A stretch of DNA of 64,000 nt from Coriobacteriales bacterium (lineage in GTDB: Bacteria; Actinomycetota; Coriobacteriia; Coriobacteriales; UBA8131), in NCBI GenBank assembly GCA_031282405.1, contig JAITDU010000048.1, positions 1-64,000 of the forward strand, written 5' to 3'. The notes under the pieces are model-generated. The model saw nothing but the letters and a program-made list of their open reading frames with translations. It was not told where the DNA came from and made no database searches. Positions 2,260 to 55,842 of this stretch are shown piece by piece. A program made the position numbers and the translations under genes. Position 1 is the stretch's first letter, and each line of letters starts with the position of its first letter.

Positions 2260-4185
2260 CTAGCTCAGGCGCAACCCCAGTGCTTTAAGCTGTTTGGCCT
2301 CTACGGTCTCGGGCGCGCCCGTGAGCAGATCCGTACCACTGGATGTCTTGGGAAAGGCAATGGCATCCCGTATCGAATCGAATCCACCCAATAGCATTAT
2401 CAGGCGGTCCAGGCCGAGTGCAATACCGCCGTGCGGAGGCGCGCCGAATCTTAAGGCATCGAGCAAGAAGCCAAACTGCTCGGTAGCCTCTTCCTCGCTA
2501 AAGCCCATGGCCTTAAATACCCGCATTTGCAGATCGCGATCATGGATACGCAACGTACCGCCCCCTAATTCGTATCCATCCATGATCAAGTCATAGGAAT
2601 AGCTGCCGCAGGCAGCAGGATCGCTCTCCAGCTTGGCAACGTCCTCATCCTTGATACGCGTGAACGGGTGATGGTTGGCCACAAAACGCTTGGCTTCAGC
2701 GTCGTACTTGAACATCGGAAAGTCAACTACCCAACACAGGCGATGGCCCGTGCGCTCAAGGCCCAGCACATCCGCCAGGTAGAGGCGCACCGCGCCGAGC
2801 ACATCGCTTACCACGTCGAAGCTGTCTGCCGCAAACACCACAAGGTCGCCGGGCTCAACGGCAAGTGCGGCCTTAACCGCAGCCAACACTTCAGGACCCA
2901 GGAATTTGATTATCGGAGACTTTTCCGTACCGTCCCTCCCAAAGGCTATCCAGGCCATGCCCTTAGCGCCATGCTCCATGGCTACAGAAGCTATTCTGTC
3001 GATCTCGCCGCGCGATAGCTCCCCCGCTGTTTTGACATTAATGGCCTTGACCACTCCCCCCTCTGCCACTGCCTGACTGAACACTTTGAATCCACAGTCG
3101 GCCACCAGGGCAGAGATATCCTCAAGCTCAAGGCCAAAGCGCAGGTCGGGTCGGTCGGTACCAAAGCGCGAAAGAGACTCTGCGTATGATATCCGTGGCA
3201 GCGGAAATTCGACCCCCGGCTGTATCCCGGTCATAACCTGATCAGGCACACAAGACGCATTCTCGTTGACACCAACGCCAGCATCAAGGCCGGCCTGCTT
3301 AACCCGAGCGACCTCCCCGCCAACGCCAACGTCGACACCAGTCTGCTCAGTCTGTTCGGCCTTTAGACCGATGGCGGCCAGTACCTCAACCAGGATGTCT
3401 TCAGTCATACCCAAAACATCTGCTTCGTTAACAAAGCTCATTTCGAGGTCAACCTGCGTGAACTCCGGTTGACGGTCAGCGCGCAAATCCTCGTCTCTGA
3501 AGCACCGGGCTATCTGATAATAGCGCTCAATGCCACCTACCATGAGAAGTTGCTTGAAAAGCTGAGGCGACTGCGGCAGAGCATAAAACCGGCCATTGCC
3601 CAGCCGGGTCGGCACGAGGTAGTCGCGAGCACCCTCGGGGGTAGAGCGGCCCAGTACGGGTGTCTCAATCTCGATGAAGCCACGCTTGTTAAAAGCGCCG
3701 TGGAGGGCAGCAGTAACGTCGGAACGCAGTTTGAGGGCAGCCATGACCTCCGGGCGGCGAATATCGAGGTAGCGCCAGCGCAGACGCAAGGCCTCATCGG
3801 TCTCAATTCCGTCCTCGATAGGAAACGGCGGCGTCTCAGAGCTATTAAGAACGGTGCAATCGCTGAGCAAAACCTCTACAGCACCCGTGGGCATATCCGG
3901 ATTGGCTGTGCCCTCTGGCCGCTCACGCACACGGCCGCTTACAGCAATCACCCATTCGGGACGCATCTTCTCGCCTAAAGAAAACACCGTATTAGAGCAA
4001 TATTCAGGGTCAAACACACACTGCGTCGTACCCGCGCGATCGCGCAAATCCACAAATATCAGTCCCCCATGATCCCGACGATGGGCCACCCATCCGGTCA
4101 ACACGACCGCACGGCCAACATCCGGTGCCCGCAGTTGCCCACAGGTATGGCTGTGCATGCTGTGCTTGTTAAGAGAGTCGCTCAT
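2260..4185 (-). CDS. aspS: aspartate--tRNA ligase, probably non-discriminating
   Basis: Class II synthetase that charges tRNA-Asp. The anticodon-binding OB domain comes first (GWVAHRRDHGGLIFVDLRD), then motif 2 (CFRDEDLRADRQPEFTQ, about 218-234), the bacterial GAD insert and motif 3 (GIALGLDRLIMLL). His39 in RRDHGG matches the position that is Leu in E. coli AspRS and His in the Pseudomonas non-discriminating enzyme, so it may also form Asp-tRNA-Asn for a GatCAB route (inference). Length is 641 residues against about 590 usual. The excess is a Gly/Val/Asp-rich repeat at about 255-306, before PLPRISYAE. The ATG overlaps the hisS stop by 4 nt, so the pair is translationally coupled. Confidence 0.97.
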   Translation of the reverse strand: MSDSLNKHSMHSHTCGQLRAPDVGRAVVLTGWVAHRRDHGGLIFVDLRDRAGTTQCVFDPEYCSNTVFSLGEKMRPEWVIAVSGRVRERPEGTANPDMPTGAVEVLLSDCTVLNSSETPPFPIEDGIETDEALRLRWRYLDIRRPEVMAALKLRSDVTAALHGAFNKRGFIEIETPVLGRSTPEGARDYLVPTRLGNGRFYALPQSPQLFKQLLMVGGIERYYQIARCFRDEDLRADRQPEFTQVDLEMSFVNEADVLGMTEDILVEVLAAIGLKAEQTEQTGVDVGVGGEVARVKQAGLDAGVGVNENASCVPDQVMTGIQPGVEFPLPRISYAESLSRFGTDRPDLRFGLELEDISALVADCGFKVFSQAVAEGGVVKAINVKTAGELSRGEIDRIASVAMEHGAKGMAWIAFGRDGTEKSPIIKFLGPEVLAAVKAALAVEPGDLVVFAADSFDVVSDVLGAVRLYLADVLGLERTGHRLCWVVDFPMFKYDAEAKRFVANHHPFTRIKDEDVAKLESDPAACGSYSYDLIMDGYELGGGTLRIHDRDLQMRVFKAMGFSEEEATEQFGFLLDALRFGAPPHGGIALGLDRLIMLLGGFDSIRDAIAFPKTSSGTDLLTGAPETVEAKQLKALGLRLS

Positions 4186-5540
4186 TGGCTGGTATCCTTA
4201 CTGTGTTCATGCGATACGGATGATAGGGGCGAGGTTGGTGATAAGAGTCTCGTGACAAGAGCGTCAAAGGTCAAAAGCTCCTCGCTGTGTGCCGTCATCG
4301 ACCGCAGCTTGAAATGTCCCTGTGCCAACTCATCGGGGCCGATGATGAGAGCATAACGAGCAGCAGCCTTATCGGCCACCTTGAGCTGCGATTTGAGAGA
4401 GCGTCCTTGATGATCCATGTCCGCACTGATGCCGGCTTGCCTGAGCCGCGCAACAATCGTAAAGGCGCTATGTTGACACTCGGCGCTTACAGTTACCACA
4501 AAGACATCCGGGCCTCGTGGGTCCTCCTCCACAATCCCGAGGGCTTCTTGTACGAGCTTAACCCGTTCCAAACCCACCGCAAAACCCAAACCGGGGGTTG
4601 GTTTGCCGCCAAACTCTTCGAGGAGCTTGTCATAGCGCCCGCCACCTCCGATAGCGTTTTGGGCACCCAGGCCGGCGTCAACCTGGACTTCAAACACGGT
4701 CCTTGTATAGTAATCTAAACCACGGACCAGCCGAGGATCTTCAACAAAGTCAATATTTGCTAATTTTAATAGCAATTTAACAGTCTCATAATGTTCTCTG
4801 CAAGGGCCGCAGAGCACGTTGGTTATGAGCGGCGCCTGGGACATCACCTGCTGGCATTCGGGACTCTTACAGTCAAAAGCCCTGAGCGGGTTACTATCCG
4901 CCCGCCGTAGACATTCCGGGCAGAGCGCGTCGCTGTGTGCAAGAATGAATTCGCGCACCTGCTCGCGATAGGCCGGCCTACAGGCGTCGTCTCCCATCGA
5001 GTTAAGCTTGAGTGTCAGAGCCGCATGCGGTATGCCCAGTGCATCGAAGTAGTCCATGAGCATTATCACGACCTCGGCATCTACCGTAGGCTCAACAGCA
5101 CCCAGACACTCCACACCTATCTGATGAAACTGCCTAAAACGGCCCTTTTGCGGCCGTTCATGGCGAAACATCGGGCCAAAGTACCAGAGCTTGGCAGCCG
5201 GCGAGCCTGGGGGTACAAGGTTATGTTGAACGACCGCTCGAGCCACGCCGGCCGTACCCTCCGGACGCAGTGCCAAACGCTGCTCTGGTTTAAGCGGTCT
5301 GCTCTCGGCCAGTCTTAGGGTGGCATCGGCCGAGAACACGTTATACATTTCCTTACCGACGACATCGGTAGCCTGACCAATACCTCGGGCAAAAACCTCG
5401 ATATTCTCAAAACAGGGAGTCTCGATCAGCTTGTACGCATACCGCTCAAACACCTCGGCGGCTGTCCGGACAAGTCTGTCCAAGGTGTAAGCTTCGCCAA
5501 ACAGCAGATCACTCGCCCCTCGAGGGTTTTGCAGACTCAT
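4182..5540 (-). CDS. hisS: histidine--tRNA ligase
   Basis: Class II synthetase that attaches histidine to tRNA-His. At 452 residues it has the normal architecture. Motif 2 is FRHERPQKGRFRQFHQIGVE, the histidine-binding signature is VRGLDYYTRTVFEV, and the C-terminal anticodon domain begins near PDVFVVTVSAE. The N terminus (NPRGASDLLFGEA) matches the family start. It is first in a two-gene unit with aspS, an order common in actinobacteria and Firmicutes. No T-box-like leader was recognised in the upstream gap. The product has no obvious insertion, unlike the neighbouring AspRS. Confidence 0.97.
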   Translation of the reverse strand: MSLQNPRGASDLLFGEAYTLDRLVRTAAEVFERYAYKLIETPCFENIEVFARGIGQATDVVGKEMYNVFSADATLRLAESRPLKPEQRLALRPEGTAGVARAVVQHNLVPPGSPAAKLWYFGPMFRHERPQKGRFRQFHQIGVECLGAVEPTVDAEVVIMLMDYFDALGIPHAALTLKLNSMGDDACRPAYREQVREFILAHSDALCPECLRRADSNPLRAFDCKSPECQQVMSQAPLITNVLCGPCREHYETVKLLLKLANIDFVEDPRLVRGLDYYTRTVFEVQVDAGLGAQNAIGGGGRYDKLLEEFGGKPTPGLGFAVGLERVKLVQEALGIVEEDPRGPDVFVVTVSAECQHSAFTIVARLRQAGISADMDHQGRSLKSQLKVADKAAARYALIIGPDELAQGHFKLRSMTAHSEELLTFDALVTRLLSPTSPLSSVSHEHSKDTSQ

Positions 5541-11754: not shown

Positions 11755-12543
11755 CTATGTGAATTTAACAAAACACAGTACCACAAAGCCGGAAACCACA
11801 ACCGTAGTTGCCGCACTCATTATTTTTTTGGGCAGCCGGTTTAAGCACTTCTCGCTCCACGGATAGATGACCCACGTATAAAACGTGGCCAGAGCCCCCA
11901 GCGCAAGGTCGTTGACGAGCCAAGCCTGGCCAAAAACATTCAATGGCAGGTTAGAATTATCCCAAAGGGGATAAACGCCAGAGGAATCCGGTCGATTGAG
12001 CAGAAGCCCCATCACAAGTTCCATGAGCAGACTCAGCAGGGTAGCGGCCGCAAAGCAAAGCGCGACGGCAGCCGACTGGCTCTTAACGAATCTGCTGAGC
12101 AGATCCTTGAAAGGTACCAGAATATACGCGTTGACCACAACACCGATGCCATATATTAAAAATGGGTAGAGCCAGTCGTCCCACACCAATGATTCAGGAT
12201 CATATACATCAAAGAAAATACGCATAAATGTGGAATAGATAATCTCGAGCCAATGTCCCAGGAGCGAGAATACGCAGAAATATATGGCCAGATTGCGCCA
12301 AGACGGTCGACGCAAAGGATACAGTCGTCCAGAGTCGGGCTTATCGTCATTGGGTTGTTGTGGGGCAGATTGGCCAGAAAGGAGTTGTCCGGAGTCGGGC
12401 TTGAGGTCATAGGGTTGTTTCGCCCTAGATTGGCTGAGATCAGGCTGCCTTGACGCAGGCTGCTCCGGTTGTTTGAACGTAGCCTCGTCGGGCCGTCTTG
12501 ACTCAGGCTGCCCAGAATCAGGTTGTGGAGGTTTAGCATACAT
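11755..12543 (-). CDS. CmpB-type (putative ABC-transporter type IV) membrane protein
   Basis: 262 residues. A hydrophilic Pro/Gln/Ser-rich N terminus of about 75 residues is followed by five to six membrane helices matching the CmpB family: AIYFCVFSLLGHWLEIIYST, WLYPFLIYGIG, LMELVMGLLLNR and PLWDNSNLPLNVFGQ. These proteins are annotated as transporter permeases by similarity, and their substrate is unknown. The tail region contains two 60-nt DNA repeats (12327-12386 and 12387-12446). The ATG is 3 nt beyond the stop of a homologous gene, so translation is coupled. The two genes look like a tandem duplication that diverged. Confidence 0.82.
   Translation of the reverse strand: MYAKPPQPDSGQPESRRPDEATFKQPEQPASRQPDLSQSRAKQPYDLKPDSGQLLSGQSAPQQPNDDKPDSGRLYPLRRPSWRNLAIYFCVFSLLGHWLEIIYSTFMRIFFDVYDPESLVWDDWLYPFLIYGIGVVVNAYILVPFKDLLSRFVKSQSAAVALCFAAATLLSLLMELVMGLLLNRPDSSGVYPLWDNSNLPLNVFGQAWLVNDLALGALATFYTWVIYPWSEKCLNRLPKKIMSAATTVVVSGFVVLCFVKFT
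12327..12446. repeat. two 60-nt tandem repeats within the CmpB gene N terminus
   Basis: Two adjacent 60-nt units, each beginning GTCC(A/G)GAGTCGGGCTT, encode 20-residue repeats of KPDSGxL followed by Gln/Ser/Pro-rich sequence. They lie before the first membrane helix. Confidence 0.8.
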
Positions 12544-18810: not shown

Positions 18811-19727
18811 TAGCTAACCTGCCACAATGTCAGACCATGCGCCGGAGCAGTTTCACCTGCCGCTCGCCTGTCGCAAGCCGACAACACCTCGCTTATCCAC
18901 GAAGACTCTCGCTCGCCCCGCGCCACCTCCACAAGCGAACCGACCATAACCCTGACCATCGAGTGTAAAAAAGCACTCCCAAACACCTGGATCATCAGGC
19001 ACTGCTCCCCCAGATGCTGGGCGCCAAACACATGAACCTTAAAAACGGTACGAACCGTAGAGATATCCTGAGCGGACTTCGTTACACAAAACGAACGGAA
19101 ATCACGCTCACCTTCAAACAGTTTGGCCGCGGCCTTCAGTGCGCTGATGTTCAAGGGGCGGTTTATCGGCAGCCACCAGGCATAGGGCGCCATGAATACG
19201 GGTGGCGTTGGGCTGGGATAAAGACGGTAGCGGTATTCCCGGGATTGGGCCGAGAAACGAGCAGAAAAGTCCGCTTCGCGCAACTCGAATCGCCGCACCG
19301 AGATCTGGTCGGAGACAAGAGCATTTAACGAGGTCAACAACTTGTCGGGGTTTTGGGGTATCTCGGCCGCATCCACACCAAAGGAGACCACCTGACCAAG
19401 AGCATGAACCCCAGCATCGGTACGGCCCGCGCCTTGGGTAACGACCTGTCGACGAAAGACCGTTGCCAAGGCTTTTTCCAGTTCGCCCTGGATAGTAGGA
19501 AGCCCCTGCTGACGGGCAAAACCATGAAAACTCTTACCGTTGTAAGAAACGGTAAGGGCAACTACGGCTGCAGGCAACTGCTCGCAATCTACAGACGCAC
19601 TGTCGCCGACAGAGAGTTGCTCGCTGTCTGGAACAGCATGTTTAATCGGCATAATCTGTTCACTCAGTAAAGCAGCGTTACCAGCCGGTTGCTTGAGCGT
19701 CATCCTTTGTTCACTGGCCGTCATCAT
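18807..19727 (-). CDS. truA: tRNA pseudouridine synthase A
   Basis: TruA modifies U38-U40 in the tRNA anticodon arm. The catalytic Asp is in GAGRTDAGVHALGQVV. The core begins at VALTVSYNGKSFHGFARQQG, and the C-terminal AFLHSMVRVMVGSL motif is present. The 306-residue reading carries about 55 extra N-terminal residues before the core, rich in Ser, Glu and Ala and unlike other TruA proteins. A true start farther in (for example near MPIKHAV) is possible, since the ribosome site at 19727 is weak. Coupled to the DUF1461 gene by ATGA overlap. Confidence 0.93.
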   Translation of the reverse strand: MMTASEQRMTLKQPAGNAALLSEQIMPIKHAVPDSEQLSVGDSASVDCEQLPAAVVALTVSYNGKSFHGFARQQGLPTIQGELEKALATVFRRQVVTQGAGRTDAGVHALGQVVSFGVDAAEIPQNPDKLLTSLNALVSDQISVRRFELREADFSARFSAQSREYRYRLYPSPTPPVFMAPYAWWLPINRPLNISALKAAAKLFEGERDFRSFCVTKSAQDISTVRTVFKVHVFGAQHLGEQCLMIQVFGSAFLHSMVRVMVGSLVEVARGERESSWISEVLSACDRRAAGETAPAHGLTLWQVSY

Positions 19728-24749: not shown

Positions 24750-25064
24750 TCAGGCACCGGGAGGCTTAGGAGCTCCGGGAGCACCTGGAGGCTTGGGAGC
24801 ACCAGGGGCACCAGGGGGCTTAGGAGCGCCGGGAGCACCTGGAGGCTTGGGAGCACCAGGGGCACCTGGAGGAGCCGGGGCACCAGGGGCGCCTCCGCCC
24901 ATAGCACCAGCTATCTTAGCCTTGTACTCCTCTTCGTACTTGCTTAAATCGGCTTTACAAAACGGGCATTTCTTCATGACAACGCCGCCGATTACCGCAA
25001 GTTTCTTACCACACTCTGGACATTCTGGATCGGGCAAGTCCACGCCCGCTGGCCTAAAACACAT
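24750..25064 (-). CDS. zinc-ribbon protein with Gly-Pro-Ala repeat tail
   Basis: 104 residues. The first 50 contain two Cys pairs, ECPECGKK and KKCPFCKADL, forming a zinc-ribbon. The rest is a collagen-like low-complexity tail of GAPGAPKPPGAP units, encoded by repeated DNA of about 27 nt per unit (24757-24890). ATG 25064 has GGGAG 5 nt upstream and a TGCTATAAT promoter 40 nt upstream. The tail may be a flexible linker or interaction surface. The function is unknown; it sits in the molybdoenzyme locus. Confidence 0.75.
   Translation of the reverse strand: MCFRPAGVDLPDPECPECGKKLAVIGGVVMKKCPFCKADLSKYEEEYKAKIAGAMGGGAPGAPAPPGAPGAPKPPGAPGAPKPPGAPGAPKPPGAPGAPKPPGA
24757..24890. repeat. in-frame GC-rich tandem repeats encoding the GAPGAPKPP tail
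   Basis: About five degenerate units of roughly 27 nt, combining GGAGCACC(A/T)GG and GGCTTRGGAGC blocks. Long identical stretches make copy number likely to vary between strains. Confidence 0.85.
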
Positions 25065-30988: not shown

Positions 30989-32113
30989 TTAGAGCCCCAG
31001 ATTGGCTCGGATATTCAACCACAGCAGATTGAAGGAGTCCCTGAGCGGCGCTGAGAGCGCAAAGATCGTGATGACCACAAGAGCAGCCGTGAGGGCCACA
31101 ATGATGACCTGCCAATACGACGGAGCTGCGCGATAGAGCTTGCTCACTCCTTTGGCGTCCACGAGTTTCGTGCCTATCTTCAAGCGCACAAGAAATGACG
31201 AGGCCATGCCGCTGCGCCCCTTATCCAGATACTCTATAAGATTCGAATGAGTGCCCAAAGCCACTATCAGTTCAGCTTTTTTCTCCCATGCTAAAAGCAA
31301 TGCCAGATCCTCGCTGGTCGAGGACAGTGGCCAGGTCACTGCCGAGAGTCCCAGCGATTCCAGGCGCGTGAGCGAGGGGCAGGTGCCGTCCTCATAGGCG
31401 TGACAGATGAGTTCGGCACCGCTGAGCAGAGCAGCGTCGCTTACCGAATCCATGTCGCCAATGATGATCTCGGGCACAAAGCCAGCCTCGATAATCGCGT
31501 CCGCGCCACCGTCAACACCAATCATTACAGGCTTGACCTCGCGGATATAGGGCCGCAGTGCTTGCAAGTCGCGCTGATACTCATAACCACGCACGACGAC
31601 CAGAGCCTGACGGCCGCGAATCGGAGTTTGAATATCCGGCACCCAAAGGTCATAGATGAGAGACACCGACTGTCGGTTAAGGTAGGCAACCGTATTTTGA
31701 ACAAACTGTTCCATCTCGCCTTCCATCGTCAGCTCGGCGGCCGTGATAAGTTGGGCGACCTGCGGGGCATCTAACACCGTACCGCGAGCTATGGTCTTAC
31801 CATCACAGCTGATCGTGCCATCGTCGTCAAGTTGGATCTCATCGCCATCCTGGATATTCGCAAACACCGCCTCGCCGACATCATCAATAAGAGGGATGTC
31901 GGCTTGTACCACTATGGTGGGGCCAACGTTGGGATAACGGCCGCTGATAGAAGTGCTCGCGTTGATGACGGCTTTAACCCGTGCGGCAACAAGGGAATCG
32001 GCCGAGATTCGATCGATGTCGACATGGTCGATAATCGCGATATTTTCCGGGCCCAGTCGTTTAACCAAGTCCTTAGTCTTTTTGCCCTTAAGGGCGATAC
32101 CGGATAGCGTCAT
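30989..32113 (-). CDS. steA: SteA-like protein (thiamin pyrophosphokinase-like domain)
   Basis: 374 residues. The N-terminal half matches the SteA family of actinobacteria; the middle resembles a thiamin pyrophosphokinase catalytic domain (VMIGVDGGADAIIEAG, IIGDMDSVSDAAL). One C-terminal membrane helix lies at about 333-355. In Corynebacterium, SteA with SteB takes part in cell separation at the septum. The typical partner steB is not present directly after it. The ATG overlaps the recN stop by 4 nt, matching the conserved nadK-recN-steA order. Confidence 0.87.
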   Translation of the reverse strand: MTLSGIALKGKKTKDLVKRLGPENIAIIDHVDIDRISADSLVAARVKAVINASTSISGRYPNVGPTIVVQADIPLIDDVGEAVFANIQDGDEIQLDDDGTISCDGKTIARGTVLDAPQVAQLITAAELTMEGEMEQFVQNTVAYLNRQSVSLIYDLWVPDIQTPIRGRQALVVVRGYEYQRDLQALRPYIREVKPVMIGVDGGADAIIEAGFVPEIIIGDMDSVSDAALLSGAELICHAYEDGTCPSLTRLESLGLSAVTWPLSSTSEDLALLLAWEKKAELIVALGTHSNLIEYLDKGRSGMASSFLVRLKIGTKLVDAKGVSKLYRAAPSYWQVIIVALTAALVVITIFALSAPLRDSFNLLWLNIRANLGL

Positions 32114-33921
32114 GAGCGCTCACCCGCAAAGATCGTAGCTCTTTGCGCATCGTCTAAAAGGCGTTGAGCATGTTCCATGGCCACGTCATCTGTCGAGCCG
32201 GAAAGCATCCGGGCCAGCTCGCGCACTCTGTCCTTTCCCTCAACACGGTTGATGCTCGTCGTAAGTCCGGTCTTTGTCTCTGCGCGGCTGACGACGAAGT
32301 GATCGGTGGCAACAGCGGCGATTTGAGCCAGGTGTGTAATGACGATGACCTGATTGTGTTGGGCCAGAGCCTGCAGGTGAGTAGCCACAGTGATAGCAGT
32401 CTGGCCACCGATACCAGCGTCGATCTCGTCGAACACCAGAGTCGTGTCAGATTCGTCTTTTTGCTGCATGCTCTTCAGGGCCAGCATGACCCGAGACAAC
32501 TCCCCACCTGAGGCAATTTTGGCCAGCGGGCGAAAATCAGACGTGGGATCCGGTTGATAGAGCAATTCAAAGGATTGCGGTCCTTGCAGTGTCCAGGCAT
32601 CGATGTCTAAATCAGTTACCGAGAAGCGAAACGCGGCTTTAGGCATGGCCAGGTGAGCTACTGTAGCGGACAGCTGTGTGGTAAAGTCGTCTGCCAGGGC
32701 CGCGCGCGCATGCGTAAGCGTTGCAGCCGCGCTTTCAAGATCGGCCCTGCGGGTCGCCAGGTCGTCGGTAGCCAGACGCAGTTGCTCGTCGCTGTTGTTC
32801 GCGTTCTCTAAGAGCTGTTGAGCGTTTTGCCTGCGCTGTAGCACCTGCTCCAAGCCCGGCCCAAAGCGACGGCTCAGGCCCTCAAGCTGTGCCAATCGGT
32901 CCATGGTGGCCTGAAGGGCGTCAGGATCGAACTCCACCGTTTCGTGGTAGGCGCGCAGGTCGTGAGTTAACTCGTCAGTGTCGGCCACTATCCCATCAAG
33001 CTGCCCGGCCAGGTCATCTAACGCGGAATCAACACCACGCAGAGCCCAAAGCTGAGTAGCGGCAGCAGACAGAGTATCGCGAGCCATGCCGTCGCCGTGG
33101 AGCATGTCGAGAGCCAGCTGGCTCACACGCGACAACTCTTCTCCATTTTGTAACACCGGGAGCGCGTCTTGGAGAGCTTGATACTCGCCGAGCTGCGGGT
33201 CGATTCTGTCTATCTCCTTGACGGTAAAAGCGGCTTGTTCTACCTCGACAGATATACGGGCAGCGGCAGTCTGCATATCCTGGAGGCTACGCGCAGCTTG
33301 TCCATAGGCCTGATAGCATTTCTCGTAAGCATCCCGGGCCTTGGTCAGCTGCAATCCACCAAAGTCGTCCAGAGCGGTCAGTTGATTGGCGGTGGCAAGC
33401 AGAGATTGGTGCTCATGTTGTCCATAGAGGTCAATGAGTGGCCCGATACTTCGAGACAGAGTCTTTAGCGTAACGAGATCATCATTGAGATAGGACCGGG
33501 AGCGACCGTCGGTAGCGATGCGGCGCAGGGCCAGATACTCCTGGGTCGGCGCGGCATCAGAGAGGGCATTGTTGTCGTCGAAACCGGTAGAGGTAGGAGC
33601 AGTGTCGGTGTCAGAGGCGGCAGGCGCGGTCTTGTCACTACCGATAGCCGTCGCAGAAGCGACGGGAGCGGTATCAGCGTCGGTAGTCGCAACAAAGACG
33701 CGGGGAGCTCTAGCCGTGAACAGCGCTTCGATACGTGCCTCTTGAGCCCCACTGCGCACAAGACTGCTATCGGCGCGTTCGCCGACGAGCAGCTTTAGCG
33801 AGTTTAACAAAGCGGTCTTGCCGGCACCCGTCTCGCCTGTAAGCACGGTAAGCCCTGGCGAGAATTCCAAGGTGGCCGCGTCTATGAGCGTCAGGTCCTT
33901 GACGCGCAACTCAAGTAGCAT
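32110..33921 (-). CDS. recN: DNA repair protein RecN
   Basis: 603 residues. This SMC-like ATPase acts in double-strand break repair. Walker A is GETGAGKTALLNSL near residue 30, long coiled coils fill the middle, and the ABC signature SGGELSRVMLAL and Walker B LVFDEIDAGIGG are intact. Between about 65 and 120 is an Ala/Thr/Asp/Ser-rich stretch (DADTAPVASATAIGSDKTAP) not found in usual RecN, encoded by degenerate repeats at about 33545-33720. ATG 33921 overlaps the nadK end by 11 nt. Confidence 0.95.
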   Translation of the reverse strand: MLLELRVKDLTLIDAATLEFSPGLTVLTGETGAGKTALLNSLKLLVGERADSSLVRSGAQEARIEALFTARAPRVFVATTDADTAPVASATAIGSDKTAPAASDTDTAPTSTGFDDNNALSDAAPTQEYLALRRIATDGRSRSYLNDDLVTLKTLSRSIGPLIDLYGQHEHQSLLATANQLTALDDFGGLQLTKARDAYEKCYQAYGQAARSLQDMQTAAARISVEVEQAAFTVKEIDRIDPQLGEYQALQDALPVLQNGEELSRVSQLALDMLHGDGMARDTLSAAATQLWALRGVDSALDDLAGQLDGIVADTDELTHDLRAYHETVEFDPDALQATMDRLAQLEGLSRRFGPGLEQVLQRRQNAQQLLENANNSDEQLRLATDDLATRRADLESAAATLTHARAALADDFTTQLSATVAHLAMPKAAFRFSVTDLDIDAWTLQGPQSFELLYQPDPTSDFRPLAKIASGGELSRVMLALKSMQQKDESDTTLVFDEIDAGIGGQTAITVATHLQALAQHNQVIVITHLAQIAAVATDHFVVSRAETKTGLTTSINRVEGKDRVRELARMLSGSTDDVAMEHAQRLLDDAQRATIFAGERS

Positions 33922-34786
33922 CGCCACCACCCGACAAGGAGCGGGCAATCTTTACATAGAAGTCCGGTGCATCAAAGCTCAGCAGCACCAATTCATTGGC
34001 AGCCTTGCCCACTTCAACAGAGTGGATTTCTTTGTCAGCATCCTTTGAACTGAGCGGCTGTCCGTCAATGTTGATAACAGCGCGTTGACCTGGGCGCGGT
34101 CGGGGGGCCAGCTCGATGACATCTTCGGGTGCCGAGACAAACGTGGCCACACCCAGGCTATGGGCAGAAATCGGCACAACGCACAGACCCTCATGGCCGG
34201 GGGTGAGCAGAGGGCCTCCCGCTGAGAGGGCATAGGCGGTAGAGCCGGTGGCCGTGGCCACAATTACGCCGTCGGCCCGAAGTTGCGGCAGGGTGTTGCC
34301 GTTGATGGCCAGATCGATGTTGATGTCCCTGCCCATATTGGAACGTCCGAGCACAATCTCGTTTAAAGCCTGATAGACAGCCGTACTCTCGTCGGCAAAG
34401 CGGATGGTAGCTTCAAGCATCACACGACGATCCTCTGCGAGCGTGCCCGCCAGAAAGGCTTGCAGAGCCGCTTGCAAAGACTGTGGTCGCGCGCCGGTCA
34501 AAAAACCCAGACTGCCAAAATTTACGCCGAGCAACGGCAGCGTGGCACGAGTCGCTATCCGCGTGGCTTTAAGGACTGTGCCGTCGCCACCCAGGGCACA
34601 GATCAACCCAAAGTCGCCACTTTCAACCCGCGTGGATACCTCGCGAAGCGCCAAAGAACCGATAAGCAGTTCGTCGGCATCAACAAGTTCCGAAGCGATG
34701 CCAATGAGCCGCAGCCACTCGCCCGCCTCCTCAGCTGCTTGCACCGCTGTGGCATTGATCGTCGGAGCTACAAAGAGGACCTGCAT
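33911..34786 (-). CDS. nadK: NAD kinase
   Basis: 291 residues. It phosphorylates NAD to NADP. The signature GGDGTVLKA is at about 66-74, and the second conserved block VNFGSLGFLTG, the NE-rich ALNEIVLGR and DGVIVATATGSTAYALSAGGP are all present. The start overlaps the tlyA end by 19 nt and the stop overlaps recN, so it is translationally coupled on both sides. No unusual insert was seen. Confidence 0.96.
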   Translation of the reverse strand: MQVLFVAPTINATAVQAAEEAGEWLRLIGIASELVDADELLIGSLALREVSTRVESGDFGLICALGGDGTVLKATRIATRATLPLLGVNFGSLGFLTGARPQSLQAALQAFLAGTLAEDRRVMLEATIRFADESTAVYQALNEIVLGRSNMGRDINIDLAINGNTLPQLRADGVIVATATGSTAYALSAGGPLLTPGHEGLCVVPISAHSLGVATFVSAPEDVIELAPRPRPGQRAVINIDGQPLSSKDADKEIHSVEVGKAANELVLLSFDAPDFYVKIARSLSGGGDAT

Positions 34787-37731: not shown

Positions 37732-38307
37732 CTATCTGTTCTCCTTACTCAGGCTTTCAGCTTCACATTCTTTATCGTTACAGACTATCGTTACAGACAC
37801 AGGGTCCGACATAGGAGCAGGCACAAGGTCAGACGCAAGAGTCGATGCGGAGTCTGGTACAAGAACCGACACAGGGTCAGACGCAAGAGCAGCAGCCAGT
37901 GTCCGGGCGATACTGCCGAGCACGCCGTTGATGAAGCGCGGTGAATCATCCTCGCCGCCGAATATCCGCGCCAGCTCCACAGCTTCGTTAACCGATACAC
38001 TGATAGGCACCTCGTCGATATAAAGCATTTCGTGGGTGGCTAATCTGAGGATACATCGATCGACGAGCGCAATCCTGTCGATGGACCAGTTGGCAGAAGC
38101 CGAGGCGATCAGGGCGTCGATCTCGGCGCTGCGCTCGGGTAAAGTCGTGACCAGCCGAGCTGTGAACTGACAAGGTATGCCCAACTCATCAATGAACTCG
38201 CCGTCTGCAAGTACCTGAGCCGGGCCGGTACCGGTCAGCTCAGCCTGGTAGAGTATCTGCAGGGCTTTGCGCCGAGCAATCGTGCGATCATGGTGGACAC
38301 CGCTCAT
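37732..38307 (-). CDS. nusB: transcription antitermination factor NusB
   Basis: 191 residues. The NusB fold covers about 5-135: RRKALQILYQAELTG, then RIALVDRCILRLATHEML and NEAVELARIFGGEDDSPRFINGVL. NusB binds boxA RNA with NusE to assist rRNA transcription. The last ~55 residues are an added Ser/Asp/Val/Pro tail with imperfect repeats (DPVSVLVPDSASTLASDLVP), encoded by repeats at about 37790-37905. The gene lies in its usual position, after efp and the carboxylase genes. Confidence 0.94.
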   Translation of the reverse strand: MSGVHHDRTIARRKALQILYQAELTGTGPAQVLADGEFIDELGIPCQFTARLVTTLPERSAEIDALIASASANWSIDRIALVDRCILRLATHEMLYIDEVPISVSVNEAVELARIFGGEDDSPRFINGVLGSIARTLAAALASDPVSVLVPDSASTLASDLVPAPMSDPVSVTIVCNDKECEAESLSKENR

Positions 38308-42997: not shown

Positions 42998-44317
42998 TCA
43001 GATGATAATCAGCTCGCGAGGCGAGGTGGCAAAGCTGTCGTAGGAGCTGGGTGGAGTGGCAGCGCGCGCAGGCTGCGAGCGGCGGCCCTGTGCCTTGGCG
43101 ACCGGAGTGTCCCTGGCTACCGTGGCGGATTGATCCGTGTTCTCAGTGCTGAGTGGGGTGACAGGCTGGTCGTCAGGGAAGCTATAAGCGCATATCACGC
43201 CGCAATCCTCAATGCGTACACCACCACTGCCAGCCAGATAGACACCCGGCTCCACCGTAACGACGTTACCGGGTTCAAGCACGTCTTTGCTGTTGGGGGC
43301 AAGCGAGGGAGACTCGTGAACTTCGATGCCCACCCCGTGTCCCAATGAGTGCGAGAAATGCTCGGCGTGTCCTCTTTGGGCCAAACACTGCAGGGCGATG
43401 TCATGGGCTTTGGCACCCGCAAGGCCACTGCGCAAGGCCGCCTTAGCCTGGTTGTGCGCCTCAAGAACGGCGGCATACACGTCCTTTTGCTGAGACGTAG
43501 GCTGACCAATTACCAGGGTGCGGGTCATATCGGCACAGTAATCCTGAGAGCGGGCGCCAAAGTCCACTACGACGAAATCACCCTGCCTGAGCCGGCGTTG
43601 TCCCGGGCGGGCATGCGGCAGGGCGGAGTTGGGTCCCGAGGCCACTATCGGTGGGAAGGCCACCTCTTCGGCCCCCAGTTCGCCCAGGTTGAAGCGCAGT
43701 TTGTTAGCCACTTCTAACTCACTTATCCCCGGCTTTATCCATTCCAGTAGACGCATGAAGGCCCTGTCCGTGATACGCTGGGCCTTGCGCAGCAAATCCA
43801 GTTCCTCTTTGTCTTTGACCGCTCGCAAGGTGGCCATAAGGCTCCTGGTGTTGCTCAGGCGAGCCGTGCTCTTGGCCAACGTGCGGCTGAGGCCGCGATA
43901 CGCGCTCAGGGTGATAGTGGGCTCGTAGCCCATTTTAAACCTCGCGGCACCCTGGACGGATAACCCCTCCAGGTAGTTAAACAAGAATTCGGCATGCGAT
44001 ACGCGCGTGGCATCCACCTGCCACGAAGTGCCAGCGGCGCGGGCGCGCATGGACTCGACATAGCGGCTGTCAGTGTGCACCAGGCAGTCCTGAGCGGTGA
44101 CAAGCACCAGATGCGCCGGCTCGTCGTCAAAGACCTGTCGCCAACCTGTAAGCCAGCGCTGATTGGCCACAGCAAGGCTGATAAAACCGTCCAGACCACG
44201 CTCAACCAGCCGGGCACGCAGGCGGGAGAGCCTGGCTTTTGAGAAGGCGCTTTTCTCCCCGGCGGCCCTGGCTTTTGAGACGGCGCTTTTCTCCCCGGCG
44301 ATTGTAGGATGTTCCAT
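42998..44317 (-). CDS. pepP: M24-family Xaa-Pro aminopeptidase
   Basis: 439 residues. The creatinase-like N domain is followed by the M24 catalytic domain, whose metal ligands sit in VVVDFGARSQDYCADMTRT, HSLGHGVGIEVHE and VTVEPGVYLAG plus GVRIEDCG. It removes N-terminal residues before proline. The N terminus has a perfect 12-residue duplication (EKSAVSKARAAG, EKSAFSKARLSR), and the C terminus adds about 50 Ser/Ala/Pro-rich residues after PVTPLS. The aroQ-pepP-efp order is the classical one. Confidence 0.93.
   Translation of the reverse strand: MEHPTIAGEKSAVSKARAAGEKSAFSKARLSRLRARLVERGLDGFISLAVANQRWLTGWRQVFDDEPAHLVLVTAQDCLVHTDSRYVESMRARAAGTSWQVDATRVSHAEFLFNYLEGLSVQGAARFKMGYEPTITLSAYRGLSRTLAKSTARLSNTRSLMATLRAVKDKEELDLLRKAQRITDRAFMRLLEWIKPGISELEVANKLRFNLGELGAEEVAFPPIVASGPNSALPHARPGQRRLRQGDFVVVDFGARSQDYCADMTRTLVIGQPTSQQKDVYAAVLEAHNQAKAALRSGLAGAKAHDIALQCLAQRGHAEHFSHSLGHGVGIEVHESPSLAPNSKDVLEPGNVVTVEPGVYLAGSGGVRIEDCGVICAYSFPDDQPVTPLSTENTDQSATVARDTPVAKAQGRRSQPARAATPPSSYDSFATSPRELIII
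44231..44302. repeat. 36-nt tandem duplication in the pepP N terminus
   Basis: Two 36-nt units with only a few differences, CCTGGCTTTTGAGAAGGCGC at 44231 and CCTGGCTTTTGAGACGGCGC at 44267, encode the repeated 12-residue segment. Confidence 0.88.
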
Positions 44318-46363: not shown

Positions 46364-47638
46364 TCACTCCTGCAGTGCCTTAGTGTCAGCGGACATTTGT
46401 AAGAAGCGCGAAAGCGCACGGGTGAGTTCCGGTACCGTAAGGGTAAGCAGGCGGGGGCTGCCCGGCGCGTCTAACACTACGAGGCTTTGCTCGCTGCCAC
46501 GGTTCTTCTTGTCGTGGAGCATCGCTGCAACCAGGGCTTTTATAAACGCGTCATCAATCCTGATCTGAGGAGTGGCTTGGGCAGGGTCGTGCCCGCCAGC
46601 GGGTTCGCTGTCTGGCTTATGCTCAGCATCAGCTTCGTGACTTGGCTCAGCATCGGTCTTGCGGCTCGGCTCAGTATCGGTCTTGCGGCTCGCGTCGGCG
46701 GTCATCATCAAACTCGGCTCCAGACCAAGGCGAGAAAATAGATGGTCTTGGAGGGCGGCCAGGCCCTCGGGCGCACATTGGGCAGCAAAGCGCATGCCCT
46801 CCACGACCGCCTGCCCATGGCTGAGCGAACCGGACGGCAAAACCGCCTCCAAGGCGTGACCAAGGCTATGCCCGTAGTTTAGAATGAAGCGGTGTCCTTC
46901 GTCCAGTGGGTCGGTCTCAACCACGGCAAGCTTGAATTCAACAGCGCGGCGCACAGCCTCACGTAGGGCCTCGGGGCTGCGCCGGGCGACCAGCTCCTGG
47001 GCCTGAGCACACAGCCATTCCAAAAAGCTGCCACCTTTGAGCAGAGCAGCCTTGGCAACCTCGGCAACGCCGCTCATAAAGGCCGCCTTGGGCAAAGTCG
47101 ATAACAGCTCTGTGTCGGCAAGCACAAAAAGCGGTGCCTTATAGACCCCGATGAGGTTCTTATAATTGCTAAAATTTATAGCAGTTTTAGCACCAAGGGC
47201 CGCGTCGACCTGAGCCAGAAACGTCGTTGGCACCGTAACGCTGTCCAGACCTCGCATATAGGTGCCAGCTGCCAATCCCGCAACATCGCTCGTGCTCCCA
47301 CCACCAAAACTGATGATCACACTTGAGCGTTGTGTGCCAAGATCACTCAAGCGCTGCCATAACATCTCCAGCACCACTGCGGTCTTGGCCTCCTCGCCCG
47401 GGGGTATCACGATCACATCCGTCTTGAAGCCGTGCGTGTCCAGATTGGTTTGCAAGACAGGGCCGTGCAGGCCGAACACCGCCTCGTCACTGATAATGAC
47501 CGCATGTCGACCGGCGATACGCGTAGACATAAGCGCGCCCAGATCCCGAACGGCGCCCGGAGCCACGACCACTGAAGTGGCGGTGGGCGGTACGGCAAAC
47601 ACCGTATCGAAGCAATAGCCCGTCTCGTCGCCGCTCAT
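46364..47638 (-). CDS. aroB: 3-dehydroquinate synthase with repeat insertion
   Basis: 424 residues; second step of the shikimate pathway, NAD- and metal-dependent. Diagnostic blocks: PPGEEAKTAVVLEMLW, SFGGGSTSDVAGLAAGTYMRG, FLAQVDAALGAKTAINF, RFILNYGHSLGHALEAV and the metal His in GSLSHGQAVVEGM. Near residues 310-355 an Asp/Glu/Ser/Lys-rich insert with 8-residue repeats (KTDTEPSR, KTDAEPSH) breaks the helical domain; its DNA has 24-nt units. Usual AroB is about 360 residues. ATG 47638 overlaps the aroK stop (ATGA). Confidence 0.95.
   Translation of the reverse strand: MSGDETGYCFDTVFAVPPTATSVVVAPGAVRDLGALMSTRIAGRHAVIISDEAVFGLHGPVLQTNLDTHGFKTDVIVIPPGEEAKTAVVLEMLWQRLSDLGTQRSSVIISFGGGSTSDVAGLAAGTYMRGLDSVTVPTTFLAQVDAALGAKTAINFSNYKNLIGVYKAPLFVLADTELLSTLPKAAFMSGVAEVAKAALLKGGSFLEWLCAQAQELVARRSPEALREAVRRAVEFKLAVVETDPLDEGHRFILNYGHSLGHALEAVLPSGSLSHGQAVVEGMRFAAQCAPEGLAALQDHLFSRLGLEPSLMMTADASRKTDTEPSRKTDAEPSHEADAEHKPDSEPAGGHDPAQATPQIRIDDAFIKALVAAMLHDKKNRGSEQSLVVLDAPGSPRLLTLTVPELTRALSRFLQMSADTKALQE
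46618..46691. repeat. 24-nt tandem repeats inside aroB
   Basis: GGCTCAGCATCGGTCTTGCG is the core of unit 46644-46667 and is repeated almost exactly at 46668-46691, with a more diverged unit at 46618-46643. Each unit encodes 8 residues in frame. Confidence 0.88.
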
Positions 47639-48305: not shown

Positions 48306-49646
48306 CTAGCCGCCGCTAGCGTTCAGAGAGCAGGTGGACAGAGCAGCCAGACGCTCACGGTAGTGCTCGCAGGCGGCTTGGGCATCGGCCACGGTGTCGC
48401 CGCCGAACTTCTTTTGACAGGCACTGGCTAATACGACCGCCGCCTCTGCCTCGGCCACAACGGCCACGGCCGGCACAACACAGACATCGCTGCGCCGCGT
48501 GGGCGCTGGGGTCGTTTGCCTACGCATAAGGTCCACGCTGGCAAGCGGACGCGCGAGCCCCGGGGGCGCCTTCGTAGCTACACGCACTACGAGTGGTTGG
48601 CCGTTCGTCATGCCGCCTTCCAGGCCACCGAGGTTGTTGCTGAGCCTGCCGGGCTGGATACACCCATCCTCGGGGACAAGGGCGATGACATCGTTGATCT
48701 GGCTGCCCCGATGATATGAGCCGTCAAAGCCCCGACCGAACTCCAGACCTTTGACGGTGGGTATCGAGGCTAACGTTGCTGCCAAAAGCGACGAAAGACG
48801 CTCGGGCCCACAGGTATAGCTGCCCAGGCCGGGCACAAGCCCTCGGACGACGAGCATGAATCGGCCACCGAGGGTATCACCGTCATGGGCGGCAGCGTCA
48901 ATAGCTGCCACAATTCGAGATGTGGTGTCCGCATCCGGGCAGCGAACAGGAGATGCCTCGATGTCGACACGTGTGAAAGGGGGTTTTGCTAAAACTCCCG
49001 CTGCCACACGCTCAGCAGGCATATCCACTGAACCGATGCCGGTGACAAAGGAGGAGACTTCAACGCCGAATTCGGCCAGATACGAGGCGGCAATGGCTCC
49101 GGCCACCACACGAGCAGCGGTCTCACGGCCGCTGGCACGCTCGGAGATGGCCCTGAGATCTGTCGCGCCGATCTTTTGCAGCGCGGCCATGTCGGCATGT
49201 CCGGGCCGAGGGATACAGTCGTCTTTGGTCGGAGATATGATGTGGCGGTCGTTAAAATGAGCACCGCTGGGTTGGTCATTATGAGAGGGAAAATCGTCAA
49301 CGCAGCAGTTGTTGGAATGAGCGTTGTTGGAAGGGGGGTCGCCGGCAACAGAATCGCCAGTGTGGCGGTCGTCGGGAGGAGAACCGTCGCCAGTGGCATA
49401 CGAACTATCGACATTGGCGATAAGCACCGCTAGAGGCGCGCCGGTGCTCTTGTCCCCTTGCACGCCGCTGAGGATCTGGATTTCGTCGCGCTCAAAGGTC
49501 ATACGCTCTGAACGTCCATATCCCGAGCGTCGGCGCGCCAAAAAAGCATTGATGATGCCGGTGGTGACACTCACACCTGCGGGCACGTCGGTAACGACAG
49601 TGACCAGGAAAGATCCGTGTGATTCGCCGGCAGTGGTAAAATGCAT
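48306..49646 (-). CDS. aroC: chorismate synthase with Asp/Ser/Asn-rich insertion
   Basis: 446 residues against about 360-390 usual; FMNH2-dependent last step to chorismate. The start MHFTTAGESHGSFLVTVVTDVP, RRRSGYGRSERM, RASGRETAARVVAGAIA and GLEGGMTNGQPLVVRVA are diagnostic. At about 80-150, between IANVDSSYATGD and the conserved RPGHADMAALQK, lies an insert rich in Asp, Ser, Asn, Pro and His, encoded by degenerate repeats at about 49240-49410. The active-site His and Arg motifs are intact, so the enzyme should be functional. Confidence 0.95.
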   Translation of the reverse strand: MHFTTAGESHGSFLVTVVTDVPAGVSVTTGIINAFLARRRSGYGRSERMTFERDEIQILSGVQGDKSTGAPLAVLIANVDSSYATGDGSPPDDRHTGDSVAGDPPSNNAHSNNCCVDDFPSHNDQPSGAHFNDRHIISPTKDDCIPRPGHADMAALQKIGATDLRAISERASGRETAARVVAGAIAASYLAEFGVEVSSFVTGIGSVDMPAERVAAGVLAKPPFTRVDIEASPVRCPDADTTSRIVAAIDAAAHDGDTLGGRFMLVVRGLVPGLGSYTCGPERLSSLLAATLASIPTVKGLEFGRGFDGSYHRGSQINDVIALVPEDGCIQPGRLSNNLGGLEGGMTNGQPLVVRVATKAPPGLARPLASVDLMRRQTTPAPTRRSDVCVVPAVAVVAEAEAAVVLASACQKKFGGDTVADAQAACEHYRERLAALSTCSLNASGG

Positions 49647-51244: not shown

Positions 51245-51289
51245 GACTGTTTGATACCTGACTGTTTGGTGCCTAACTGTTCGCTATCA
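51245..51289. repeat. three 15-nt degenerate tandem repeats between yqeG and mltG
   Basis: GACTGTTTGATACCT, GACTGTTTGGTGCCT and AACTGTTCGCTATCA follow each other in the 140-nt gap after mltG. Noncoding, but of the same short-unit kind as the in-gene repeats. Confidence 0.75.
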
Positions 51290-52508: not shown

Positions 52509-52949
52509 CTATCCTTTACTTCCTTCGTCTAACGACCTATCTGGCTGACTGTCCAACCATGTCTGCAGAATCAGGCTGGCGGCTATTCTATCAGTTTTAC
52601 CCCGTATGTCGCGTTCACGGTAACCTGTCTGTTTAAGAATCAGCTTGGCTTCGGCACTGGAAAGCCGCTCGTCGACAAATTGCAGCGGTAACTTATAAGT
52701 GTCGGAGATGCGCTGGGCCACATCGCGTACCCGAACAGCCTGGGCACGCTCGCTGCCATCCAACGACAGTGGCAGACCACAGACCAAAAGTTCCACGTCG
52801 TATTCCTCAAGTAACGACCAAAACGACCGAGATGCGGCCAGGATGTCATTCGTAGGTAACATATTCAGGGGTAAAGCGACTGTGCGCGCGGGATCACTCA
52901 CGGCGATGCCGGTACGCTTATGGCCTATGTCCAGCGCCAATACGCTCAA
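52509..52949 (-). CDS. ruvX: RuvX/YqgF Holliday junction resolvase-like nuclease
   Basis: 146 residues with an RNase H-like fold: LALDIGHKRTGIAVSDPA supplies the first active-site Asp, LLVCGLPLSLDGSERAQA the middle Glu/Asp region, and FVDERLSSAEAK the last. YqgF proteins are implicated in 16S rRNA 5' processing and possibly junction resolution. It follows alaS by 34 nt and precedes mltG. Confidence 0.93.
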   Translation of the reverse strand: MSVLALDIGHKRTGIAVSDPARTVALPLNMLPTNDILAASRSFWSLLEEYDVELLVCGLPLSLDGSERAQAVRVRDVAQRISDTYKLPLQFVDERLSSAEAKLILKQTGYRERDIRGKTDRIAASLILQTWLDSQPDRSLDEGSKG

Positions 52950-52983
52950 TTCGACTACTTTGCTGTGCCTGTTACCCGTACGC

Positions 52984-55842
52984 TCAAGACTGCTTTGACT
53001 TTGCGGCTAACTTCTCGGCACCGGCGGCCTCACATCTTGTATGTTCTACGCCCAAAAGCTCTCGTGTCTTAGCCAGGGCAGCGTCCAACCCATCAGGATC
53101 TTTGCCACCTGCCTGGGCCATCTGTGGCTTACCGCCGCCGCTCCCCTGAATCAGAGTGGACACCTGAGCAATGAGCGCCCCCGCGTCAAAACCGTTTTGT
53201 ACGGCCTGTTTCGTGGCGGCGGCCAGGATAACCGGCTGGCCATCGGGCCTGAGACTGCCGATGACCACGGCCGAATTGGCCCCAAGGCCCTGTCTGAGGA
53301 TGTCTGCCGTCTCGCGTAGCTGACCTATCGTGTTTCCGTCCAGACGCACGACCACAAGTTGATAGCCCACATTCACAGCCTGGGCGAGCAATTCTGTAGC
53401 GCTGGAGGCAACCTGCGCCTGTCTGAGCGTGGCAAGCTCGGCTTCCAACTGCCGCTGCTGCGTCAAAACGCCCTCCAGTCTGTCGGCAAGCTCCAGTGGC
53501 GCAGCCTTGAGCAGTTCGGCAGCGCGACACAACTCACGTTCCCTGCGGTTAAGGTACTCCAGAGCATCGAAGGAGGTAACGGCCTCAATGCGACGCAGGC
53601 TGGAACCGATACTGGTCTCGCTGATGATTTTCATAAGCCCGACCTGGGCCGTATGGCTCACATGGGTGCCTCCACACAATTCACGAGAGTTAGACCCGGC
53701 TTCCAGCACGCGCACGCTGTCGCCGTACTTCTCTCCAAACAGTGCTGTTACCCCATCGTCTCGGGCAGCATCCAGTGTGGTCTCGTAGGAATTGACCGTA
53801 CTATCCTCCATAATCAGAGTATTCACAAGTTGTTCGACTCCGTCGATCTGCTCAGAACTGAGTGGCTCAAAGTGTGTGAAATCAAAGCGCAGACGCTCCG
53901 GCAAGACGAGCGAGCCGGCCTGGCGGATATGCTCACCAAGAATCTGTTGCAGAGCGTAGTGCAGCAGGTGAGTAGCCGTATGATTACGTTCGATACGTTC
54001 GCGACGCAGGGTGTCTATCGAGGCGCAGACAACGTCGCCCACACGCAAGGTACCATCGATATGGCCAATGTGCGCGTGAATACCCGAGAATACTTTGGTG
54101 TCAGCGACTTCAAACGTGCCTTCGTCGGCACCGGCGACCGAGGTGCTATTCTCATCGACAGCGAGCAGGGCATGGGCATCACCTGCAGCATCACCTGCAG
54201 TATCACGTACAGCATCACGTGTGACATCATCAAAATCACCGTTACCGCTGTGTACTCTGATAGTGCCCCGGTCGCCCACCTGACCGCCCTTCTCGGCATA
54301 AAATGGCGTTCGGTCCAAGACTACCTCGGCGGCCTGGCCGTCGCTTATCTGCAGCACCTGTTCGCCGTCTACTACGATAGCCACTACCTCGGCCGTGGCC
54401 GACTGATGCGCGTAGCCCACAAAGGAAGTAGGGCCTTGGTCCTGAGCTATTTGCTCATAGATCAACCCCTCCTGGCTCCAGGCATCGCCCTCGGCATGCT
54501 GTCGGGCACGGTCGCGCTGCTGTTGCATATGTTTATCAAAAGCCTGCGTATCAACTTCAACACCGTGCTCGCCGGCAATCTCGATAGTTAAATCAATGGG
54601 AAAACCAAAGCGGTCGTGCAACTCAAAGGCCACCGCACCGCTCAGTTGGCTTACGGGCCCTGCGCCCTTCAAAGCGCTGGCCAGATGATTATCCAGATAA
54701 CTTTGTCCCGAGCGCAGTGTCGTTGCAAAACGCTCCTCTTCAGCATGGATGACACGCTCTATGAGCCGCTGATTCTCGACAATTTCTGGGTAGACAGAGC
54801 CGAGTTCGGCCACAACAGCGGCAACATAGGTGCCCAAAAACGGCGTCTCGATACCAAGCAACAGGCCGTGCCGAATGGCCCGGCGCAGCAGCCGACGCAG
54901 CACATAGCCTCTGCCCTCGTTGGATGGCAGGATGCCATCGCCGATGAGAAACGTCACAGCTCGGCTGTGGTCGGCAAGAATACGCAACGAGAGATCATGT
55001 GCGCATGTTTTTTCTCCCGCCGCCTCTTGTATGCCTTCGTCTGTAGCAAAGGTGCCTTGGTAGGCAGTGCCGCTCAGTTCCTCTCCTACTTTGATCAAAC
55101 CGCGCAGAATATCAGTATCGTAGTTGGATTGCACGCCCTGCACGAGGGCCGCCGTGCGCTCCAGGCCCAGCCCCGTATCAATGTTCTTCGTAGGAAGGTC
55201 CACGAGCGAGCCATCTTCCTGCATGTCATATTGGGTAAACACGCAGTTCCAAAACTCCAAAAAACGATCGCAGTCGCAGCCGGGCGCGCAGTCCGGTCTG
55301 CCGCAGCCATGCTCGGGGCCCTGGTCATAATACAGCTCGCTGCTCGGTCCACAGGGCCCGGTGTTGCCGGCCACCCAGAAGTTGTCCTCCTTGCCCAGTC
55401 GGGTGATACGATCGGCATCAACACCCAACTCGCGCCAGATAGCTGCAGTTTCGTCGTCGTCAAAGTAGACCGTAAAGTACAGCCGCTCGCGGTCAAATCC
55501 CAGCACTTCGATGGCAAACTCCAAAGCCCAGGCGCACATCTCCTGTTTGAAGTAGCCGCCAAAGGAGAAGTTTCCCAGCATTTCAAAAAAGCTCAGATGG
55601 CGACCCGTAGAACCGATAATATCAATATCGGTCGTACGAACACATTTTTGCACCGAGGTCGTGCCAATATAAGGGGCCTCAAGGCGGCGTTGTTGTAGAA
55701 AATAGGGTTTGAACTGCACCATGCCGGCGCTGGTCAAAAGCATTGAGGGATCGTCGGGGATAAGAGAGGACGACGGCACACGTTTCATGCCTTTAGCCTC
55801 AAAGAACGCGAGATATTTCTCTCGCAATTCCGCTGTTTTCAT
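52984..55842 (-). CDS. alaS: alanine--tRNA ligase with repeat insertion
   Basis: 952 residues against about 880 usual. The catalytic domain (KYLAFFEAKGMKRVPSSSLIP), tRNA recognition domain, editing domain zinc motif NHTATHLLHYAL with CGGTHVSH, and the C-Ala domain ending GGGGKP-type (GSGGGKPQMAQAGG) are intact. In the editing-domain linker before FEVADTKVFSG there is an insert of Asp-x-x-x units (DAVRDTAGDAAGDAHA) encoded by 12-nt repeats at 54176-54223. The stop-side neighbour is ruvX; its ATG side overlaps by 4 nt with the AI-2E permease stop. Confidence 0.96.
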   Translation of the reverse strand: MKTAELREKYLAFFEAKGMKRVPSSSLIPDDPSMLLTSAGMVQFKPYFLQQRRLEAPYIGTTSVQKCVRTTDIDIIGSTGRHLSFFEMLGNFSFGGYFKQEMCAWALEFAIEVLGFDRERLYFTVYFDDDETAAIWRELGVDADRITRLGKEDNFWVAGNTGPCGPSSELYYDQGPEHGCGRPDCAPGCDCDRFLEFWNCVFTQYDMQEDGSLVDLPTKNIDTGLGLERTAALVQGVQSNYDTDILRGLIKVGEELSGTAYQGTFATDEGIQEAAGEKTCAHDLSLRILADHSRAVTFLIGDGILPSNEGRGYVLRRLLRRAIRHGLLLGIETPFLGTYVAAVVAELGSVYPEIVENQRLIERVIHAEEERFATTLRSGQSYLDNHLASALKGAGPVSQLSGAVAFELHDRFGFPIDLTIEIAGEHGVEVDTQAFDKHMQQQRDRARQHAEGDAWSQEGLIYEQIAQDQGPTSFVGYAHQSATAEVVAIVVDGEQVLQISDGQAAEVVLDRTPFYAEKGGQVGDRGTIRVHSGNGDFDDVTRDAVRDTAGDAAGDAHALLAVDENSTSVAGADEGTFEVADTKVFSGIHAHIGHIDGTLRVGDVVCASIDTLRRERIERNHTATHLLHYALQQILGEHIRQAGSLVLPERLRFDFTHFEPLSSEQIDGVEQLVNTLIMEDSTVNSYETTLDAARDDGVTALFGEKYGDSVRVLEAGSNSRELCGGTHVSHTAQVGLMKIISETSIGSSLRRIEAVTSFDALEYLNRRERELCRAAELLKAAPLELADRLEGVLTQQRQLEAELATLRQAQVASSATELLAQAVNVGYQLVVVRLDGNTIGQLRETADILRQGLGANSAVVIGSLRPDGQPVILAAATKQAVQNGFDAGALIAQVSTLIQGSGGGKPQMAQAGGKDPDGLDAALAKTRELLGVEHTRCEAAGAEKLAAKSKQS
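54176..54223. repeat. four 12-nt tandem repeats inside alaS
   Basis: Units GCATCACCTGCA (54176 and 54188, identical), GTATCACGTACA and GCATCACGTGTG encode Asp-Ala-Ala-Gly-type quartets in frame. Confidence 0.9.

Follow-up and report, generated by a model that had tools for sequence, protein, structure and literature searches.

Why do so many conserved genes of unrelated function at a single bacterial locus encode extra low-complexity protein segments? The window, i.e. the whole stretch of DNA analysed here, corresponds to the initial 64 kb of contig C1 in a Coriobacteriales metagenome-assembled genome (MAG; hereafter G000) of 2.0 Mb in 57 contigs, 88% complete and with a GC content of about 54%. 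This genome is part of a family, apparently of termite-gut bacteria, which is monophyletic in the AlaRS tree and includes 33 genomes from 19 genera, with one genome per species and GC contents of 45-67%; the nearest relative of G000 is a congener of a different species (G001). The sample codes Emb289, Lab288 and Nt197 designate the termites Embiratermes neotenicus, Labiotermes labralis and Neocapritermes taracua (PMC7024585), and the codes Roe, Gx, Rs, Im, Co, Cf and Jx, being of similar style, are presumably host codes as well.

The original prediction, made from the window alone, named eight genes with added low-complexity segments, and Pfam and NCBIfam matches together with the comparison of relatives recovered such segments in all eight, each on the reverse strand. 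The AspRS insert (3211..3360; residues 276-325 of CDS 2260-4185) lies directly ahead of the GAD domain, in a loop of 91 residues in the window genome, 65 in G001 and 63-89 in the sister genus g14, where an insert of roughly 21 residues is partly conserved; elsewhere in the family the loop has 42 residues in most genomes and 47 in G006. The RecN insert (33553..33717; residues 78-132 of CDS 32110-33948) occupies a site that is independently filled in G004, G012, G013, G027 and G032. In NusB, the Pfam domain stops at residue 135 of 191 and the C-terminal tail beyond it (37735..37902) is extra, with a 24/48-nt repeat (TRF 37796-37890). Residues 1-78 of the CmpB-like membrane protein form a low-complexity extension with a 60-nt repeat (12310..12543) that precedes the Pfam domain, which starts at residue 87. 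PepP has a 36-nt duplication at its N-terminus (44231..44317; TRF 44231-44300, 97% match), as well as an internal insert of about 46 residues near its C-terminus (43028..43186) that the original prediction had not listed; at the matching site, core position 384, G001 harbors a different insert of 42 residues. TRF, relatives and codon shuffles concur on the AroB insert (46535..46720), which adds 50 residues compared with relatives and includes a 24-nt x 3 array (46621-46692). In AroC, the insert (49209..49397) replaces the ordinary loop, giving a segment of 85 residues vs 43 in most relatives (+46), and the window genome is its sole carrier among 20 family AroC proteins. AlaRS contains a linker insert (54115..54255) with a 12-nt x 3.6 array (TRF 54176-54218) and a second insert (54997..55044; residues 267-282), with extra lengths of +42 and +15, respectively; at this second site, near core position 270, we found 14 residues in the window genome, 41 in G001 and 51 in G007. 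In AlphaFold2 models, pLDDT is about 30-38 across residues 81-140 of the window AroC and 26-32 across residues 281-321 of AspRS, with flanks of higher confidence; the segments in general occupy disordered loops, linkers and termini. Some core stretches of the AspRS model also have low pLDDT, which probably reflects a shallow alignment. In composition, inserts and arrays favour P, T, A and S, with few W, Y, F, I and L. We also noted an N-terminal extension of about 50 residues before the family domain of TruA (19572-19727), without significant DNA repeat. No AroC match was found in G001 (88% complete) or in several genomes of g14 and g15; this could be due to incompleteness or to a divergent form, the latter because a more distant type of AroC occurs in G018, G023, G028 and G029.

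The DNA underlying these segments was examined for self-repeats with 200 codon shuffles for each window insert. The expectation of clear tandem units in multiples of three held for five of the eight genes, namely NusB (offset 48), CmpB (60), the N-terminus of PepP (36), AroB (24) and AlaRS (12), with p = 0.005 in each case and all significant offsets divisible by three; AroC was marginal (p = 0.025), and no repeat beyond the codon shuffles was found in AspRS (p = 0.11) or RecN (p = 0.94). At the scale of the family, 20 of the 50 inserts of at least 15 residues are DNA self-repeats beyond codon shuffles, all with an offset divisible by three, vs 3 of 124 core segments of the same length (p = 5e-10). 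Head-to-tail DNA units thus exceed chance, as expected from slippage-type tandem duplication. The other 30 inserts (60%) may be decayed repeats or may have another origin. Likewise, the self-repeat excess was not significant when the G000 inserts were pooled (median 6.5 vs a control mean of 5.7, p = 0.24), so that the repeat label does not extend to all inserts.

The key result comes from the comparison of arrays inside and outside genes, pooled over 16 family genomes with genes defined by a greedy ORF heuristic and not by a gene caller. Units are multiples of three in 165 of 181 coding arrays vs 41 of 102 non-coding ones (p = 4e-20), even though both classes have the same median unit of 24 nt and similar copy numbers. 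Non-coding arrays are distributed 41/34/27 over the residue classes, without any preference for a period of three. When G014 is excluded, in-frame arrays amount to 119/Mb in genes and 249/Mb outside (ratio 0.48), whereas out-of-frame arrays amount to 12/Mb in genes and 383/Mb outside (ratio 0.03). Since the unit lengths are the same and the non-coding arrays show no period of three, the bias towards multiples of three reflects filtering: duplications arise regardless of frame, and selection retains the in-frame products without any targeting mechanism. The predicted in-frame minisatellite growth is therefore genome-wide and recurrent, but the duplication is not intrinsically in-frame, frame-breaking arrays being purged from genes. 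Copies at least 97% identical occur in 31 of the 181 coding and 27 of the 102 non-coding arrays, which suggests that growth is active. Two window arrays exemplify the non-coding class: an 18-nt x 3.1 array outside called genes (60496..60550) and a 15-nt x 2.5 array between the YqeG and MltG genes (51245..51281). A third, 27/54-nt array (24753-24894) is without a clear gene; one of its forward frames, read by eye, is a collagen-like APGGLGAPGAP repeat.

Altogether, we consider it likely that the inserts result from frame-blind, slippage-type duplication, followed by in-frame retention and decay, under permissive repair and weak selection. Short tandem duplications, mostly with units of 12-60 nt in 2-4 copies, abound in both coding and non-coding DNA; those in frame are found in loops, linkers and termini that are disordered, and the same permissive sites are reused in different lineages. 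The arrays would arise through replication slippage or RecA-independent misalignment, enlarge by more slippage and later diverge by substitution, so that older inserts, such as those of AspRS and RecN in the window, would have stayed low in complexity while ceasing to be repetitive. Their accumulation would then be permitted by weak selection in gut lineages restricted to their hosts, perhaps together with an increased rate; the inserts themselves are, most probably, nearly neutral.

TRF arrays (score >=50) number 186/Mb over 403 kb of the source genome; Markov-shuffled DNA contained none and codon-shuffled genes had 6/Mb, which bears out the genome-wide character of the process. At TRF >=70, the density of coding arrays reaches 70/Mb in the window genome, 60 in G001, 92 in G020 and 180 in G032, vs 12, 22, 21, 7 and 44/Mb in five outgroups from the order and 0 in a sixth, sampled over 23 kb; the corresponding figures for the matched AlaRS neighbourhood are 129/Mb in the family and 8/Mb in 42 loci of other bacteria. 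The absence of any excess over relatives, which would have contradicted the original prediction, is thus not observed at this threshold. The excess is graded, since at TRF >=50 the Eggerthellaceae and Atopobiaceae densities were not clearly lower than that of the family, and since G014 and G029 have low array densities despite belonging to it. Such similarity at lenient thresholds, as well as the enrichment of termite-derived members in two families, would be consistent with a duplication rate that is ordinary for the order, only selection being weaker in insect-gut lineages owing to a small effective population size. However, the density of non-coding arrays is also raised in several family members, hinting in small samples at a higher rate, and we regard this alternative as possible, though rather doubtful. 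Over 16 family genomes, insert load is weakly correlated with coding array density (rho 0.42, p = 0.10); that it would follow non-coding repeat density was not supported (rho -0.12).

Frame-blind duplication under weak selection would also be helped by the DNA repair background. Profile searches, in which the controls were detected, yielded no match over the cut-off for MutS1, MutL or NucS in any of the 33 family genomes; MutS1 is likewise missing from all 101 genomes of the order, where NucS gives partial, weak matches only. As MutS1 is lacking order-wide, repair loss alone cannot explain the excess in the family; judging from these gene contents, it would instead be the permissive background common to the order. 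The absence of xseA from the nusB-recN region of the window had brought up the loss of exonuclease VII as a cause, which was rejected: its large subunit (PF02601) exceeds the cut-off in G000 and in 28 of the 33 family genomes in all. It was undetected in both G031 and G032 (genus g19), the latter 91% complete and with a repeat density among the highest. In G000, this subunit (C54:11456-12457) has an open frame of 529 residues vs roughly 430-490 in most relatives, and is possibly a further expanded protein.

Across the family, unrelated low-complexity inserts are found at recurrent loops of AlaRS, RecN, AspRS and AroC. Parsimony on a three-protein tree requires a minimum of about 41 changes in these four proteins, which we estimate at about 36 when artificially split sites, above all in AspRS, are merged. 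AlaRS alone has about six recurrent sites where different genera hold unrelated peptides (e.g. STVNEVASTVNEVASTVNEAA in G002, PGADALAPALPGADAPAPALPGTDA in G031 and GAGDGKGAGDGKGPGDGKG in G004), and the same applies to RecN (DKQATHDEQLAHDEQLAHD in G002, TSAQPDPAGATSAQPDPAGATSAQP in G024); at the AlaRS linker site, the peptides differ between G001 (85 residues), G002 (52), G021 (36), G027, G029 and G032. AlaRS inserts of at least 15 residues are present in 15 of 24 family genomes vs 2 of 65 other bacteria, the latter distributed as 1/16 in the Eggerthellaceae set (L079, sample code Cf509, probably termite-derived), 0/8 in Atopobiaceae and 1/41 in other bacteria. When reciprocal best hits are aligned, the proteins of G000 exceed those of most outgroups by roughly 40-60 internal residues per 1000, vs about 10 in the reverse direction, and G001 has even more than G000; inserts of at least 8 residues occur in 17 of 47 conserved proteins of G000 vs 0 of 22 in G014 and 0 of 18 in L077. 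Presence and length thus vary between genomes, contrary to what fixation of the inserts throughout the family would imply; that essential genes tolerate them is supported. The reuse of some sites by many genera (AlaRS 270, 388, 487 and 523; RecN 93) and the partial conservation of the AspRS segment could also be read as signs of functional disordered segments under selection, for instance in condensates, tRNA handling or stability, all the more so as surveys have argued for both conservation and function in many prokaryotic low-complexity regions (LCRs) (PMC6821194, PMC12695832). Yet the sequences at shared sites are unrelated between genera, with lengths from 0 to 85 residues, and cross-lineage conservation at a site is limited to the AspRS segment, partly and within g14. 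Many enzymes of unrelated function are affected, and non-coding DNA displays the same repeats; such a functional explanation appears unlikely.

Near-neutral duplication is also to be preferred over the in-frame entry of a dispersed mobile element. Mobile inserts of this kind are known as the Rickettsia palindromic elements (RPEs), which are likewise spread in frame over numerous, mutually unrelated genes in a host-associated bacterium (PMC10969869). However, RPEs constitute dispersed families of about 150 bp, whereas the inserts of the family are local and differ gene by gene: the tested window inserts have no dispersed homologous copies in 403 kb, apart from self-repeats and one 34-nt match of CmpB at 85%, and this origin is highly improbable. 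An artefact of assembly or binning is just as hard to credit, even though every titled genome of the family appears to be a MAG, since the arrays are mostly short, the reading frames remain open and the pattern is repeated over many genes in MAGs of several independent projects. As a separate observation, part (1533-1840) of a prepilin-like gene on the reverse strand (1119-2039) has matches of 85-91% at L144:1-308, L146:11892-12128 and L153:328-421, and of 81% at L148:1-160; its matches within G000 are mostly near contig ends, and dispersed prepilin cassettes probably break the assembly.

In Plasmodium and Dictyostelium, essential enzymes with a conserved core are swollen by fast-evolving disordered inserts. 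The proteins described here are similarly swollen, but in a bacterium and by units of 12-60 nt instead of homopolymer-like codon runs. The contingency SSRs of pathogens mostly switch expression, whereas growth here is in-frame and affects housekeeping enzymes. Slippage-driven tandem repeats, as in the meningococcal case (PMC4085013), are common to both. Coding tandem repeats and LCRs are already known in bacteria, and those of prokaryotes resemble the family inserts in being rich in G, A, P and S and in their suggested origin by slippage (PMC6821194, PMC12695832). These surveys, however, emphasize LCRs that are conserved between lineages or reside in core genes, while the family inserts are specific to lineages, lack homology at shared sites and are linked to duplication of DNA. 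Our search of the literature, mostly open-access and with few preprints, found no bacterial family with core enzymes repeatedly swollen by such inserts. Should life in the termite gut drive such growth in several lineages, these would be the bacterial counterpart of the proteomes of Plasmodium and Dictyostelium with their low-complexity swelling. The family also offers a natural experiment on the entry of new protein sequence into essential enzymes. It provides, in a single lineage, dozens of independent in-frame insertions at shared loops together with a non-coding control for mutational supply, making it possible to measure which protein positions tolerate growth and to weigh missing mismatch repair against weak selection.

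This also opens the question of whether insect-gut life inflates proteins. Three Eggerthellaceae-clade MAG loci with termite-style codes (L079, L074 and L077), which are few and related, contain 15 arrays (TRF >=70) in 62 kb (240/Mb) vs 6 in 242 kb (25/Mb) for the 13 other loci of the Eggerthellaceae set. Conversely, UBA1419 and AS06, family genomes with names that give no hint of termites, have no AlaRS insert, and none of 22 UBA1419 proteins has inserts. Habitat may therefore influence repeat enrichment; that termite-gut life drives convergent in-frame repeat growth in the core proteins of several unrelated lineages lacking mismatch repair is a speculative extension, which we put forward only tentatively. 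Among the 42 non-Coriobacteria loci, two of the six strong arrays are in the Oscillospiraceae loci L119 and L122, with the termite codes Emb289 and Lab288.
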